Below, piece by piece: positions 58,874 to 64,000 of a stretch of 64,000 bases of DNA. The notes under the pieces were generated by a model. That model did no database searches. It was not told where the DNA came from and saw only the letters and a program-made list of their open reading frames with translations. Source of the stretch: Methylobacterium bullatum. GTDB lineage: Bacteria; Pseudomonadota; Alphaproteobacteria; Rhizobiales; Beijerinckiaceae. How positions within the stretch are numbered: the first letter of the stretch is position 1; the number at the start of each line of letters is the position of its first letter. The position numbers were made by a program, and so were the translations under genes. The stretch spans positions 1 through 64,000 of the forward strand of contig NZ_NKUG01000019.1 of NCBI RefSeq assembly GCF_014845095.1. Reading direction: 5' to 3'.

Positions 58874-58970
58874 GCGGTACCTGGAACGATCACACTCGTG
58901 TCCGCCCCTAAGCCATCGCGGGGCGAGCCACAACGGAAGCCCCGGTCGGCAGTGATGGCGGCGGGCGACG

Positions 58971-59996
58971 TCAGCGGGTGAAGGGCGAGGACACCACGAC
59001 ACGGACGATGGCGAAACCCGCATCTGCGTTCTGCCGGCGCCGGACGGTGCCGAAGCCTCCGGTGCCATCGCCGGAGCCCATCTGCGCCACACGGATGCGG
59101 GGGGCACGGTCGACCGTTCGGCCGGCCTGACGAACATCCTGCTCGGCGGCGCGGGCATCGGCCTCGCGCCGGACGACGTCGATCTTGCGGTCGATGCTGC
59201 GGCGCTCGCGCGGTGAGAGGAGACCGGCCTCGCGGAAATCCACCACCGTGAAACCGCCGGACCGGGTGGAGACCACCACACGGGCGCTCGATGGGGTGGC
59301 GACCACGTCGCCCACCCGTGCGGTCGGGTCGCGCTCGATCGGGAGTGGCGCCGCCGCCACGCCTTCGGACTGACAGGAGCACTGCTCGACACGCTTGGTG
59401 CGGTACAGGTTCGCGACGAGGAGGGCGCGGTAGGGACGCCCGTCGAGACCGACGGCCCGGTCGAGATCGTTCTGCCTCGCACCCAGCATGTAGAGGCTGG
59501 TGGCGGCGTTGGGACAAGCCGCGGCACAGGCCGCCTCGTGCAGGGGAATGTCGGAGCGGGACGCCAGGCGCCCGAGGGGGAACAGGTAGCCGTCGCAGGC
59601 CCGGACGCAGACCGTGCGGGCGCCCAGCGCCGAGGCGGTCAGCGCAGCGGATGCGGCGCGGCTCGCTCGGGCGGGGGAGGGGCGCGTGAGACGCGCGAGG
59701 CGTGGCGTCTGGCGCGGCGCCTGGACCGCCGTGATACGGCTCGTCGTGGGAAGGGAGGCGTAGCGGGGCCGGGAAGGGCGCGGCATCGAGACTGGCGCGG
59801 GCTGCGGCTTCACCGCCGGACCGCGAAACATCTCTTCGAAGAAACTGAAGATGCCTCCCTGCTCGGAGGCCTGAACCAGGCTCGATCCGGCAACGACACC
59901 GCCGAGTCCGAGGACCAGCCCGGCTATGACCGGGGCGACGACGCGCGTCTGCGTCGCGAAACTCGTCCGTCTCCTGCCGGGGTTCGTCGACCGCAT
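58971..59996 (-). CDS. DUF2865 domain exported protein
   Basis: A 341-aa protein with an N-terminal membrane-spanning signal (VVAPVIAGLVLGLGGVVAGSSLV) and a central DUF2865 domain with a conserved cysteine pattern: CVRACDGYLFPLG...CAAACPNA...QCSCQ. The region before the domain is Pro/Arg-rich and the end is Arg-rich. The family is limited mainly to Hyphomicrobiales and has no known function. The ATG at 59996 gives MRSTNPGRRRTSF, a basic N terminus before the hydrophobic segment. It is divergent from mntH and does not share the manganese-type operator position closely. Confidence 0.85.
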   Translation of the reverse strand: MRSTNPGRRRTSFATQTRVVAPVIAGLVLGLGGVVAGSSLVQASEQGGIFSFFEEMFRGPAVKPQPAPVSMPRPSRPRYASLPTTSRITAVQAPRQTPRLARLTRPSPARASRAASAALTASALGARTVCVRACDGYLFPLGRLASRSDIPLHEAACAAACPNAATSLYMLGARQNDLDRAVGLDGRPYRALLVANLYRTKRVEQCSCQSEGVAAAPLPIERDPTARVGDVVATPSSARVVVSTRSGGFTVVDFREAGLLSPRERRSIDRKIDVVRREADARAAEQDVRQAGRTVDRAPRIRVAQMGSGDGTGGFGTVRRRQNADAGFAIVRVVVSSPFTR

Positions 59997-60244
59997 CGTT
60001 TTCTCAACCCTTCGGCAACCATCCGCTAGGACGCCCGTCCTGCCTAAGGCCGAGGCGAGCGCCTTCGCAACGGGGGTAGACCACCGAGTTTCGCCCATCG
60101 GCGAAGGGCCGATTCCTCCCCGTGCATCCCGCCGGAGGCCCGACAGGGGAACAGGAGAGCGCACCCGCCCCCCACTCGGCAGCGGGCGTCTCGTGCCCCC
60201 TTACGCCACGCACAGGACGGAGGCGCAGGTCCCTATCTTAGCCT
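59997..60244. other. Divergent region between DUF2865 and mntH genes
   Basis: About 250 bases with no gene, GC-rich, with several short complementary segments such as ATCGGC/GCCGAT around 60094-60115 (TCGGCGAAGGGCCGA). It should hold the DUF2865 promoter. I considered a structured RNA here but could not match one. Confidence 0.4.
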
Positions 60245-60273
60245 TTGTTTTTCATTATAGCCGATGCTATATG
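60245..60273 (+). promoter_or_regulatory. Promoter of mntH
   Basis: TTGTTT (60245-60250) and TATATG (60268-60273) are exactly 17 bases apart, and the MntR-type operator lies in the spacer and covers part of the -10 box. Binding there would block RNA polymerase. The mntH ATG is about 50 bp downstream. Confidence 0.65.
60256..60271. promoter_or_regulatory. MntR-type operator upstream of mntH
   Basis: TATAGC-CGAT-GCTATA, perfect 6-bp inverted arms around 4 bases. The arms ATAGC-N4-GCTAT match the core of the MntR sites known from E. coli. A near-identical copy stands before the porin gene at 61777. Confidence 0.7.
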
Positions 60274-60325
60274 CCGTTCCGGGTGCAGTGCGGTACCCAC
60301 GATTCAGCTCGACGGAAGACGCGGC

Positions 60326-61672
60326 ATGGACAGGCTCGACGAAGACCGGGGGTGGCGCTTCAGCCGCGAGACGAACGAACAGCCGAGCCTCGGGCGCATG
60401 AATGCCAGCATTCCCGTGCTGTCCCACGGCTCCTGGCTGCGGCGGCTGCTGGCCTTCATCGGGCCGGGCTACATGATCTCCGTCGGCTACATGGACCCGG
60501 GCAACTGGGCCACCGACATCGCGGGCGGATCGCAATTCGGCTACACGCTGCTGGCCGTCATCCTGCTCTCGAACCTCATGGCGATCGTGCTGCAGGCCCT
60601 CTCGGCCCGGCTCGGCATCGCCACCGGCCGCGACCTCGCCCAGGCCTGCCGCGATCATTATCCCCGGCCCGTCAGCTTCGTGCTGTGGATCGCCTGCGAG
60701 GCGGCGATCATCGCCTGCGACCTCGCCGAGGTCATCGGCACCGCCATCGCCCTCAAGCTGCTCTTCGGCATTCCCCTCGTCATCGGGGCGATCATCACCG
60801 CCCTCGACGTGTTCCTGATCCTGCTGCTGATGCGGCGCGGCTTCCGGGCGCTCGAAGCCTTCGTGATCGCGCTGCTGCTGGTGATCTTCGTGTGCTTCGG
60901 CATCCAGATCGCGCTCGCCGCGCCTCCGATCCAGGCGGTGCTCGCGGGTTTCATCCCCTCGTCGCAGATCGTCACCAACCCGGCCGCCCTCTACATCGCC
61001 ATCGGCATCATCGGCGCCACCGTCATGCCGCATAACCTCTACCTGCACTCCTCCATCGTGCAAACGCGAGCCTATCCCCGCACCGAGGAAGGACGCCGGG
61101 GCGCCCTGCGCTTCGCGGTGACGGATTCGACCATCGCCCTGATGCTGGCGCTCTTCGTCAATGCCGCGATCCTCATCATGGCCGCATCGGTGTTCCATTC
61201 CACCGGGCGCACCGACGTGCAGGAGATCGAGCAGGCCTACGAATTGCTCTCGCCGCTGCTCGGGGCCGGCATCGCCTCCACCCTGTTCGCCGTGGCGCTC
61301 CTGGCCTCGGGGCTCAACTCCACCGTCACCGCGACGCTGGCCGGCCAGATCATCATGGAAGGCTTCCTTCGCCTGCGCATTCCCGACTGGGCGCGGCGCC
61401 TGATCACGCGCGGCATCGCCATCGTCCCCGTCGTCGTCGTGACGGGGCTCTACGGGGAAGAGGGCACGGCGCGCCTCCTGGTGCTCAGCCAGGTCGTCCT
61501 GTCCATGCAACTGCCCTTCGCCGTGATCCCGCTCGTGCGCTTCGTGTCGGACAAGCAGAAGATGGGCGCCCTGGTGATTCCGGCCTGGCTGAAGCTCCTC
61601 GCCTGGGTGATCGCCGCCATCATCGTCGTCCTAAACGTCAAGCTCCTGGTGGACACCGTCACGGGCGCCTGA
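60326..61672 (+). CDS. mntH: Nramp family Mn2+ transporter
   Basis: A 448-aa proton-coupled divalent metal importer of the inner membrane, expected to take up Mn2+. The metal-binding DPGN is at 57-60 in [14 protein letters not shown], and MPHN is at 234-237 in [15 protein letters not shown], the two signatures of Nramp/MntH; about 11 hydrophobic segments are visible. The ATG at 60326 begins MDRLDEDRG and leaves a normal cytoplasmic N terminus; an earlier frame start would overlap the operator. A promoter with an MntR-type operator lies 55 bp upstream, so it is probably repressed when Mn is abundant. Confidence 0.95.
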
Positions 61673-61765
61673 CGCATAGGGTCCGACGCCCGCTTCCCTG
61701 ACGGGCGGCGGGCGCACACCACACAGCCCCCACCGGGCCGCGCCGCGGCACCGGGAGGTGAAGCT

Positions 61766-61794
61766 TTGCCCAATCATATAGCATAGGCTATACT
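61766..61794 (+). promoter_or_regulatory. Promoter of the OprB-like porin gene
   Basis: TTGCCC (61766-61771) and TATACT (61789-61794) are exactly 17 bases apart. As before mntH, the operator spans the spacer and the start of the -10 box. The ATG lies 18 bp downstream, implying a very short leader. Confidence 0.65.
61777..61792. promoter_or_regulatory. MntR-type operator upstream of the porin gene
   Basis: TATAGC-ATAG-GCTATA. It has the same arms as the mntH operator, and read on the opposite strand the two 16-mers differ at one position (TATAGCATCGGCTATA versus TATAGCATAGGCTATA). Confidence 0.7.
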
Positions 61795-61811
61795 ATCGAG
61801 AAGAGGCGTCG

Positions 61812-63236
61812 ATGATCAGCATGAGGATGATCGCACGACGACAGAGGGCGCCGACACGGATGGTCGCCGCCGTTTTCGCATTCCTGTCGGTCGATCCCGC
61901 ATGGTCGGACCCCGGTGAGACGGGGGCGGTGGACGATCGTCCGGCGCAATCGGCTCCGCTGGAGCCCGACCGTCCCCCCTCCATCCAGACGTCGCTCGGC
62001 GCATTCGGGGATCCGAGTGGCTTCCGCAGCCTGTTGGCGGCGCGCGGCATCGACTACAACCTGCTCTATACGAACGAGGTCCTCGGCAATCTGTCCGGCG
62101 GGGTGAGGCAGGGCGCGATCCATGCCGGCAAGTTCGAGACCGCCGTCAGGGTCGATTTCGACCGTCTCGCCGGCTGGACCGGATGGAGCGGCTTCGCCAA
62201 CGTTTTCCAGATCCACGATACCGGCGGCCTGCGCGACCGGAGCTTCCAGCGGCTCATCACGGTCAGCAACATCGAAGCCTATCCCTCGACGCGGCTCTCG
62301 GAACTCTGGTTGGAGCGGGCCTCCGGCGACCGAACGCTGAGCCTGCGCTTCGGGCAACTGGTGGCGGATGGAGAGTTCTTCTCGTCCGAGACCGGCAAGA
62401 TCTTCCTCAGCAACGACTGGCCGACCATCACCGGGGCCAATCTCCCGAGCGGCGGCCCCGCCTATCCGATCTCGACCCCCGGCATGAGGCTGCGCTGGAC
62501 GCCCGATGCTTCGGTGAGCGGGCTCGTTGCCATCTTCAACGGCGATCCCGGCGATCAGGCGAGCGTCAACCGGACAGGTTTGAATTTTCGACTAAACGAC
62601 GCCCCCCTGGTGATGGGCGAGGTCCAGTTTCGCGCGGTGCCCGGCGCCGACGGGCTCGGTCGAAGTGTGAAGCTCGGCGCGTACCGGCATTTCGGACGTT
62701 TCGACGATGACCGCTACGACCGGACGGGACTTTCCCTGGCAAACCCACGCAGCGGCGGCTCGGCCCGCCGCCACGCCGGCACCAGCGGTGCCTATGCGGT
62801 CGTCGATGCGCAGCTGTATCGGCCCATGGGCGGCAACGAGACTGATGGAATCGCCGCCTATGCCCGCCTTTCGACGAGCCCTTCGGACCGGAACCTCATC
62901 GATCTCTGGGCTGATGGGGGCATCGTGGTCACGGGCATGACACCCGGTCGTCCGAAGGACGCCTTCGGTCTGAGCTTCATCTACGCGCGGATCGGCGAGA
63001 ACGCCCGGCGCTACGACCTGGACCGGCTCTCATTCGGCACCGAGTTCCACGTTCCCCGCAGCTACGAAGCCACGATCGAAGCGACCTATCTTTTCGCGGT
63101 CACGTCCGGTTGGACGATCCAACCGGACATCCAATACGTCTTCAACCCCGGAGGCGGTGCCGCCGATCCGAACCGCCCGGGCCAGCGCATGAAGGGCGGC
63201 GCCGTGTTCGGCCTCCGCTCGACCCTCACCTACTGA
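61812..63236 (+). CDS. OprB-family porin, candidate manganese outer-membrane channel
   Basis: A 474-aa outer-membrane porin of the carbohydrate-selective OprB family. It has a signal peptide (MVAAVFAFLSVDPAWS region) followed by an OprB domain with GIDYNLLYTNEVLGNLSGG, LYELWLER-like SELWLERASGDRTLSLRFGQL, FFSSETGKIFLSNDWP and a terminal beta strand ending STLTY. Its MntR-type operator is shared with mntH, which suggests Mn2+ passage across the outer membrane, as shown for MnoP of Bradyrhizobium; OprB membership alone would suggest sugar. The start ATG 61812 has AAGAGG upstream; ATG 61821 is an alternative. Confidence 0.85.
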   Translation: MISMRMIARRQRAPTRMVAAVFAFLSVDPAWSDPGETGAVDDRPAQSAPLEPDRPPSIQTSLGAFGDPSGFRSLLAARGIDYNLLYTNEVLGNLSGGVRQGAIHAGKFETAVRVDFDRLAGWTGWSGFANVFQIHDTGGLRDRSFQRLITVSNIEAYPSTRLSELWLERASGDRTLSLRFGQLVADGEFFSSETGKIFLSNDWPTITGANLPSGGPAYPISTPGMRLRWTPDASVSGLVAIFNGDPGDQASVNRTGLNFRLNDAPLVMGEVQFRAVPGADGLGRSVKLGAYRHFGRFDDDRYDRTGLSLANPRSGGSARRHAGTSGAYAVVDAQLYRPMGGNETDGIAAYARLSTSPSDRNLIDLWADGGIVVTGMTPGRPKDAFGLSFIYARIGENARRYDLDRLSFGTEFHVPRSYEATIEATYLFAVTSGWTIQPDIQYVFNPGGGAADPNRPGQRMKGGAVFGLRSTLTY

Positions 63237-63239
63237 TCA

Positions 63240-63660
63240 GCGCCGACGTGCGCCCCGCACCCGAACCGGCACAAGCTGGGGAGTGGGGGACGTGCCCTCG
63301 ACGACCTGTACGAATCCGCGAGCGGCAGCGGCGACCGCATCGAAGAAGCGTCGTGCGATTGATGCGGCCAGCGACTCTCTCATCAGATTGCATCCGTGTT
63401 CGGGAACAGGTGACGAACGCCACATGGGACACTGGGTTCCACTCTGACGTCAACAGCTATGTGGGTCTGTCCTCAGGGCGCCGACAAGAGACCCGTCGAT
63501 ATGACGCATGTCTGCGATGCGCGCGCGGCCGGACGGACATCACATCCACCTCAGACAGACGCAGGAAGGGCGTGAGTCCAAATGGGAGAACCCGGAGTCC
63601 CGCAAGCCGCGACCACGACGAGCGACGGCCGAAAATCAATCGTGACCGCTTTGTGTCAAA
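63240..63660. other. Intergenic region downstream of the porin gene
   Basis: About 420 bases without a convincing gene. Short frames in it have arbitrary composition and no ribosome sites or conserved motifs that I recognise. The end of the region leads into the stress-type promoter of the DUF1328 gene. Confidence 0.5.
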
Positions 63661-63664
63661 GTCA

Positions 63665-63689
63665 GGAACCGGCCGGAGAACTTGGCGTT
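63665..63689 (+). promoter_or_regulatory. Candidate sigma-EcfG promoter of the DUF1328 gene
   Basis: GGAAC (63665-63669) and CGTT (63686-63689) with a 16-base spacer match the general stress consensus GGAAC-N16/17-CGTT. The gene start is 56 bp downstream of the -10 element. Confidence 0.6.
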
Positions 63690-63744
63690 ATTGTTGTCAT
63701 GAGGTCGCGGCACAGGTCGCGCCAGCTTCAAAAGGATCCGGACC

Positions 63745-63921
63745 ATGCTTGGTTGGGCTGTAACATTCCTCGTCGTCGCTCTCGTGGCCGCTCTGCTTGG
63801 CTTTGGTGGTATTGCCGGCACCGCCATGGAAGCCGCAAAGCTCGTCTTCTTCGTCGCCATCGTCCTGTTCGCCATCTCGGCCGTGATCGGCTTGATGCGC
63901 GGTCGCTCGCCGACCCTCTAA
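63745..63921 (+). CDS. DUF1328 family small membrane protein (58 aa)
   Basis: A 58-aa protein with two hydrophobic segments ([21 protein letters not shown] and [19 protein letters not shown]) and a short basic end, the layout of DUF1328/YtjA proteins. The start [16 protein letters not shown] is typical. Members are small inner-membrane proteins, often induced by stress; no molecular role is established. The ATG at 63745 has AAAGGA upstream. A sigma-EcfG-type promoter precedes it and an intrinsic terminator follows within 50 bp, so it is a single-gene unit. Confidence 0.85.
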
Positions 63922-63969
63922 CGGGCGGACGTCTCGGCGCAACGGCGTCGAATAGGCACGGAAACGAGA

Positions 63970-64000
63970 AAGCCGCCGGATGATCCGGCGGCTTTTCTTC
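63970..64000 (+). terminator. Intrinsic terminator after the DUF1328 gene
   Basis: The perfect 10-bp stem AGCCGCCGGA (63971-63980) with TCCGGCGGCT (63984-63993), a 3-base loop TGA, is followed by TTTCTTC. This is a textbook intrinsic terminator at the very end of the window. Confidence 0.85.

Follow-up and report, generated by a model that had tools for sequence, protein, structure and literature searches.

Twin predicted MntR operators at mntH and an OprB-family porin gene in Methylobacterium: a proposed two-membrane manganese uptake unit

How Mn2+ gets through the outer membrane has been worked out in few bacteria, and the porins of the OprB family are best known for sugars. In the window, i.e., the whole 64,000-nucleotide stretch of Methylobacterium bullatum DNA analysed here, an OprB-family porin gene follows mntH after a gap of 139 bp, which raises the question of whether such a porin may provide the outer-membrane step of manganese uptake, and under which regulator. 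In Bradyrhizobium, mntH and mnoP are controlled by Mur, according to the available text of PMC9653421 and to papers citing Hohle et al. 2011 for the MnoP-MntH system, and MnoP is reported to raise the apparent affinity for Mn2+. For the window we propose, with a probability of about three in four, a two-membrane uptake unit in which Mn-loaded MntR represses both mntH and the porin gene, and in which the porin has replaced an MnoP-type protein at the outer-membrane step.

Table 1. Features of the mntH/porin locus, in window coordinates
Feature	Coordinates	Strand	Basis
mntH promoter: TTGTTT, 17-bp spacer, TATATG	60245..60273	+	sequence; upstream block conserved in near relatives
Predicted MntR-type operator 1, covers spacer and -10 of mntH promoter	60256..60271	.	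motif scans
mntH, NRAMP proton-coupled Mn2+ importer, inner membrane, 448 aa	60326..61672	+	PF01566 E 7e-137; NF001923 668 bits, cut-off 430
Porin promoter: TTGCCC, 17-bp spacer, TATACT	61766..61794	+	sequence; sigma-70-like scan
Predicted MntR-type operator 2, covers spacer and -10 of porin promoter	61777..61792	.	motif scans
OprB-family outer-membrane porin, 474 aa, proposed Mn2+ channel	61812..63236	+	PF04966 over whole model; P. putida OprB 4gf4 E 3.8e-21

Both gene products are readily placed in their families (Table 1). The DPGN and MPH motifs are visible in the mntH translation; the frame is open back to 60245, with the ATG at 60326 as the likely start. Membership of the porin in the OprB family is borne out by the full PF04966 model together with a predicted beta-barrel fold, whose best PDB match is the P. 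putida OprB structure 4gey (TM 0.70/0.78) in a structure model with a mean pLDDT of only 66, built from an alignment of 12 sequences. Four relatives of the porin, 75-88% identical to it, all come from named Methylobacterium records.

The two promoters are indeed of the same design, as the first-pass annotation had it: both have 17-bp spacers and an operator lying over spacer and -10 box. The operators, placed by that annotation at 60256-60271 and 61777-61792, are read directly in the sequence as near-identical copies of a 16-bp palindrome of the form TATAGCN4GCTATA (operator 1, TATAGCCGATGCTATA, or TATAGCATCGGCTATA on the opposite strand; operator 2, TATAGCATAGGCTATA), and a search of the 64-kb window with up to three mismatches returned four strand-matches, which are these two sites only (0.13 expected from shuffles). 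Genome-wide, the exact core ATAGCN4GCTAT occurs at 2 places in the 4.86-Mb draft (329 contigs), both of them the operators described here, and its reversed control at 7. With up to two mismatches allowed, the 16-mer is found 25 times, namely as 2 exact sites, 3 that differ at one position and 20 that differ at two (287 for the reversed control), and no metal-uptake gene was recognised in a reading of the ORFs listed near the three sites with a single mismatch. Since about one exact core per genome is expected from base composition by our own estimate, two cores are unremarkable as a number; it is their position on neighbouring promoters that is remarkable. The genome-wide scan proposed in the first-pass annotation thus shows, with both exact sites at this locus, that unrelated genes do not commonly carry the motif.

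The arms ATAGC/GCTAT with a 4-bp spacer had been likened to those of E. coli, and the comparison bears this out: ATAGCAAAGGCTAT lies 16 bp before the annotated start of E. coli K-12 mntH, and its core equals that of operators 1 and 2. We take this site to be the E. coli MntR box. Within the genus the association with mntH is stable. The gene was found in 111 of 111 genomes, at no less than 80% identity in 76 and with a best match of 45-48% in 35, and an exact core is present within 200 bp upstream in 31 of 31 loci examined, all of the first mntH type (the best 30 of the 111 genomes plus G108). The second mntH type carries the exact 16-mer in 4 of 4 cases in the 25-genome listed set (G154, G158, G162 and G169); G170-G173, which combine the same mntH type with an exact 16-mer, were picked by the motif itself and constitute no test. 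Outside the genus, an exact core is seen in 2 of 23 mntH loci (L167-L189) and a core with a single mismatch in one; other genera, e.g. group g43, show the operator in loci that had been selected by the motif.

The survey of targets comprised 72 exact cores in 25 of the 111 genus genomes, among the matches listed and with G170 left out; a target was assigned when a relative of one of six references (mntH, mntR, the porin of the window, and three outer-membrane proteins that had come to light at sites of this kind) started within -60 to +400 bp of the site. Among the matches listed, these 72 sites lie at mntH in 25 cases (12 with a divergent mntR), at a two-domain barrel in 16, at a DUF6662-like barrel in 12, at a TonB receptor in 3 and at a window-type porin in 2, and 14 have no assigned target. 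In the same listed matches, exact 16-mers account for 55 of the 72 sites, and every one of these 55 lies ahead of an outer-membrane protein or of mntH, whether or not mntR diverges from it; none of the 14 sites without assigned target is an exact 16-mer. At least one outer-membrane protein with an exact core was present, among the matches listed, in 23 of the 25 genomes, the other two having 16-mers with a single mismatch, ahead of the two-domain gene in G164 and ahead of the porin in G165. The outer-membrane targets are of four kinds, namely a two-domain barrel of MnoP architecture, a DUF6662-like barrel of ~300 aa, a ZnuD-like TonB receptor and the window-type OprB porin, and the one DNA site marks candidate outer-membrane Mn transporters of several families in Methylobacterium, a genus with a place in laboratory work.

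The two-domain barrel deserves particular attention. The label "MnoP-type" rests on the published architecture of MnoP and not on a comparison with its sequence: two members scanned, with translations incomplete at the locus ends, have PF13505 (Omp_b-brl) at the N-terminus and a partial PF04966 (OprB) at the C-terminus, and MnoP is described in the available text of PMC4827864 as a protein of 675 aa in which an Omp_b-brl and an OprB domain are fused, found in alphaproteobacteria only. Searching at E up to 1e-60 recovers an MnoP-type gene from 98 of the 111 genus genomes; none was found in the genome of the window at this threshold, which a diverged copy could escape. Among the best 30 loci, the 16-mer within 300 bp upstream of the MnoP-type gene is exact in 22, has one mismatch in 6 and two in 1, and is absent in 1; 20 further upstream regions, chosen mostly because their genome had one site or none at the MnoP-type gene, yielded 9 sites with one mismatch, 1 with two and 10 without any. 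The MnoP-type gene is under the predicted operator often, not always.

The window-type porin, by comparison, is rare: at 60% identity or more (next best 47%) it occurs in 13 of 111 genus genomes and adjoins mntH in 12 of them. The MnoP-type gene is missing in 9 of these 13 vs 4 of the 98 genomes without the porin (Fisher p 9e-8, a statistic that ignores shared descent). It should be noted that, in an mntH tree of 30 genomes, the nine genomes with the porin and without the MnoP-type gene form two separate clades, so that the contrast amounts to about two independent events. Such a distribution suggests a natural exchange of the MnoP-type protein for a plain OprB porin. The first-pass likening of the locus to the MnoP-mntH pairing accordingly stands as far as mntH and a pore under a common operator type are concerned, and fails for the protein itself: the porin has the PF04966 domain only and is not MnoP by architecture, the trait it would share with MnoP being co-regulation with mntH through one operator type. 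An origin as a truncated MnoP was also considered and is not supported, the porin matching the whole OprB model and grouping with single-domain OprB porins in a tree without MnoP-type rows; used as a query at 60 bits or more, it gave no match to MnoP-type genes in the site loci. One of the four genomes with neither gene, G220, is only 70% complete.

Could the porin be regulated as proposed and nevertheless be a sugar or general porin kept for another purpose, such as a carbon source or a Mn complex like Mn-citrate, without setting the Mn2+ supply? Its family membership and its fold match to P. putida OprB would suit this explanation, as would its charge: acidic minus basic residues average 0.1 (n=14), vs 3.4 (n=20) for generic OprB paralogs, aligned parts only, and because there is no acidic bias over the paralogs, the porin sequence carries no metal-selectivity signal. 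The explanation nonetheless appears unlikely in view of the target survey, where four kinds of outer-membrane protein share the operator, one of them with the published MnoP architecture, where exact 16-mers in the 25 genomes (among the matches listed) reveal no target class besides these and mntH/mntR, and in view of the tendency of genomes with the porin to be without the MnoP type. Furthermore, whereas the carbohydrate porins such as 4gey share fold and sequence family (PF04966) with the window porin, the latter has a genomic and regulatory link to manganese that its paralogs do not show. All 17 genus OprB paralog loci inspected (L200-L216) are without a core at up to one mismatch, their best 16-mer within 400 bp upstream having 3-4 mismatches, and no 16-mer at up to two mismatches lies on contig C42, which carries the genome's own OprB paralog; the paralogs were rejected as further operator targets. 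The nearest porins outside the clade, from Devosia and Bradyrhizobiaceae, had neither mntH nor the core in the DNA around them.

Operator 2 might alternatively be a relic or only partly used, with transcription of the porin gene coming largely from mntH read-through or being constitutive. Compatible with this, no terminator-like site was found in 60150-63400, and four orthologs that still adjoin mntH have 1-4 mismatches in the operator. This seems very improbable, however, as both arms are kept in most of the window's clade, as one ortholog (G214) retains an exact core with different spacer letters, and as operator 2 overlaps the only good promoter match: in a sigma-70-like scan of 60150-63400 the porin promoter is the sole match (shuffle mean 0.3), while the mntH promoter falls below the threshold, its -35 box matching TTGACA at 3/6. 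An RNA element was considered too and rejected, as no Rfam match at gathering score was obtained in 58900-64000. Across the 13 porin orthologs the upstream core is exact in 7 and imperfect in 6, the 16-mer of the latter having one mismatch in 2, two in 1 and three or four in 3. Four genomes that keep both genes (G083, G165, G196 and G223) have 1-4 mismatches in the porin operator and no site with fewer than four mismatches at the MnoP-type gene.

Which regulator would recognise these sites? Control by an MntR-like protein in place of Mur, as first suggested from the letters of the operator, is strengthened by the genome. The search for an MntR-family regulator yielded one DtxR-family gene (a single PF02742 match), an MntR equivalog that is partial at a contig end (NF008273, 193.8 bits, cut-off 153); the N-terminal part with the first two ligand positions is missing, and all 108 remaining residues are identical to MntR of the relative G008. 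Compared with E. coli MntR (2h09), the full-length G008 protein gives E 1.8e-56; D, E, H, E, E and H align in it to the ligand positions of B. subtilis MntR, six positions that we take to be the Mn2+ ligands. Two Fur-family proteins were found, one being Irr (NF045677, 212 bits, cut-off 170) and the other closest to Zur (98 bits, below the cut-off of 167); no Mur-type protein was found in the draft genome, and control by Mur was rejected. In this clade mntR is not adjacent to the mntH/porin unit, with its own promoter beyond the contig end, and the mntR locus of G008 has no core at up to one mismatch. The link between regulator and palindrome is closer in other relatives: mntR and mntH diverge around the operator in 12 of the 25 genus genomes, among the matches listed, and two relatives within the family show the regulator gene next to this palindrome, which in G077 separates divergent mntR and mntH and in G041 separates mntR from a 61% ortholog of the porin. 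A different regulator, e.g. the Fur-family Mur or Fur, would find its model in Bradyrhizobium, where Mur controls mntH and mnoP (available text of PMC9653421), and is highly improbable here, only Irr and a Zur-like protein having been found and the palindrome both equalling the site at E. coli mntH and adjoining mntR in relatives.

Shared regulation of mntH and the porin by MntR is well supported as a prediction from the DNA, and further steps of the proposed unit we infer. When Mn2+ is sufficient, Mn-loaded MntR would occupy both palindromes and, covering the -10 boxes, block RNA polymerase; when Mn2+ falls, MntR would leave and transcription of mntH would resume together with that of the porin, which would use a promoter of its own. 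The OprB porin would then raise the flow of Mn2+ over the outer membrane and MntH would pump it over the inner one, a single-domain porin standing in for the two-domain MnoP-type protein of the genus. In M. extorquens, an insertion sequence between mntH and mntR caused roughly four-fold changes, mntH up and mntR down (accessible text of PMC5023240), which is consistent with this mechanism.

Elements of the proposed unit are already known from the available text of their sources: Mn-responsive mntH with an outer-membrane pore in Bradyrhizobium, MntR acting on an outer-membrane protein in Stenotrophomonas, and, as a prediction, an OprB-family protein paired with an iron importer in Acidithiobacillus. 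In Bradyrhizobium, too, a single Mn-responsive regulator, in the window a predicted one, governs mntH together with an outer-membrane pore that has an OprB-type domain, but MnoP has two domains and answers to Mur, whereas the window porin has a single OprB domain and MntR is its proposed regulator. With the E. coli regulon the window shares the core ATAGC-N4-GCTAT just upstream of mntH and an MntR matching 2h09; the enterobacterial MntR targets named in the available text of PMC3852070 are mntH, sitABCD and mntP, with no outer-membrane protein, whereas the predicted targets here include a porin. In Stenotrophomonas (PMC13217887, as far as its text is available), an MntR module includes a TonB-dependent receptor and a periplasmic thioredoxin-fold protein, with MntR boxes at mntH and at an outer-membrane protein, and is likewise patchy across species; that system belongs to a different bacterial class, uses a TonB receptor instead of a porin, and is backed by transcript data. 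Finally, FeoP of Acidithiobacillus, a porin-like OprB-family protein, accompanies feoABC under a predicted Fur box (available text of PMC2631029). A metal role for OprB therefore has a precedent, with an OprB-family protein and an inner-membrane metal importer under a metal-regulator operator in both cases, although the pairing concerns iron, Feo and Fur there vs manganese, MntH and MntR here, and is a prediction in both. Neither the pairing of mntH with a single-domain OprB porin at MntR sites nor an exchange of outer-membrane partners under one operator was found described in the open-licence literature. A study from 2006 that compared metal regulons across alphaproteobacterial genomes reportedly described an MntR-box, and MntR sites at alphaproteobacterial mntH have likely been predicted earlier. 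What the window contributes is mntH paired with an outer-membrane pore where the likely control site is one for MntR and not for Mur, making the outer-membrane step directly testable.

The occurrence of the site on different outer-membrane proteins among related species points to exchangeable outer doors for manganese. We lean towards a broader reading, in which the MntR operator is a fixed socket for varying transporters, both for mntH, whose two diverged forms, about 47% identical, are each seen with the same operator, and for at least four kinds of outer-membrane protein; if this holds, the operator names Mn outer-membrane transporters hitherto unrecognised as such. The single-domain OprB porins themselves speak for repeated capture. 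In another genus of the family, two genomes (G104 and G145) have OprB porins with exact cores upstream, and these are not members of the window clade, which includes G041 (100/100), but join generic paralogs (92/92), so that single-domain OprB was apparently recruited to the predicted operator twice.

The predicted MntR operator precedes a gene for a predicted outer-membrane protein of about 300 aa in 12/25 of the Methylobacterium genomes in which every exact core was listed. Copies of this gene occur at L056 (see table) and at further loci, namely L053, L060, L062, L067, L075, L218, L227, L237, L239, L242, L252 and L253; L075 comes from a genome outside the 25-genome set (G174) and was excluded from the count. 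PF20367 (DUF6662) is matched partially by the L056 copy and not matched by the L067 copy. The protein is a candidate new Mn transporter. In three of the 25 genomes (loci L049, L240, L256) the operator lies at a TonB-dependent receptor gene, whose nearest match in a scan of L049, where the gene is cut by the locus end, is ZnuD, over part of the protein and below the cut-off.

Two mntH forms, approximately 47% identical, occur across the genus (76/111 and 35/111 genomes), and the operator was seen upstream of both. At locus L091 (genome G102), two exact cores 21 bp apart (1325-1359) lie between mntH and mntR. At L029 (genome G041), a genome with no mntH match at E 1e-40, porin and mntR diverge from the operator. 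An ORF similar to the window DUF2865 gene adjoins mntH in locus L037.

The sole mntR found in the window genome (G000:C299:3-326) is truncated where its contig begins, which leaves the gene's own promoter unreadable. A published mutation list for evolved M. extorquens lines includes an mntR point mutation (PMC8153426).

The match to the MnoP-type gene (a two-domain barrel) at G153:C1:3372886-3374636 is split between two reading frames, one covering query residues 1-433 and the other 431-585, possibly reflecting a frameshift or an assembly error. An ORF at locus L071 resembles the PF10634 gene of L052, the copy on which the family scan was run.

Coordinates of genes in the window and in loci from related genomes
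Feature	Position	Strand	Context
DUF2865 protein gene	window 58971-60164	(-)	divergent from mntH
PF10634 Fe2+ transport protein gene	L052:621-1193		divergent from MnoP-type gene in G154
~300-aa predicted outer-membrane protein	L056:1532-2437		under MntR operator
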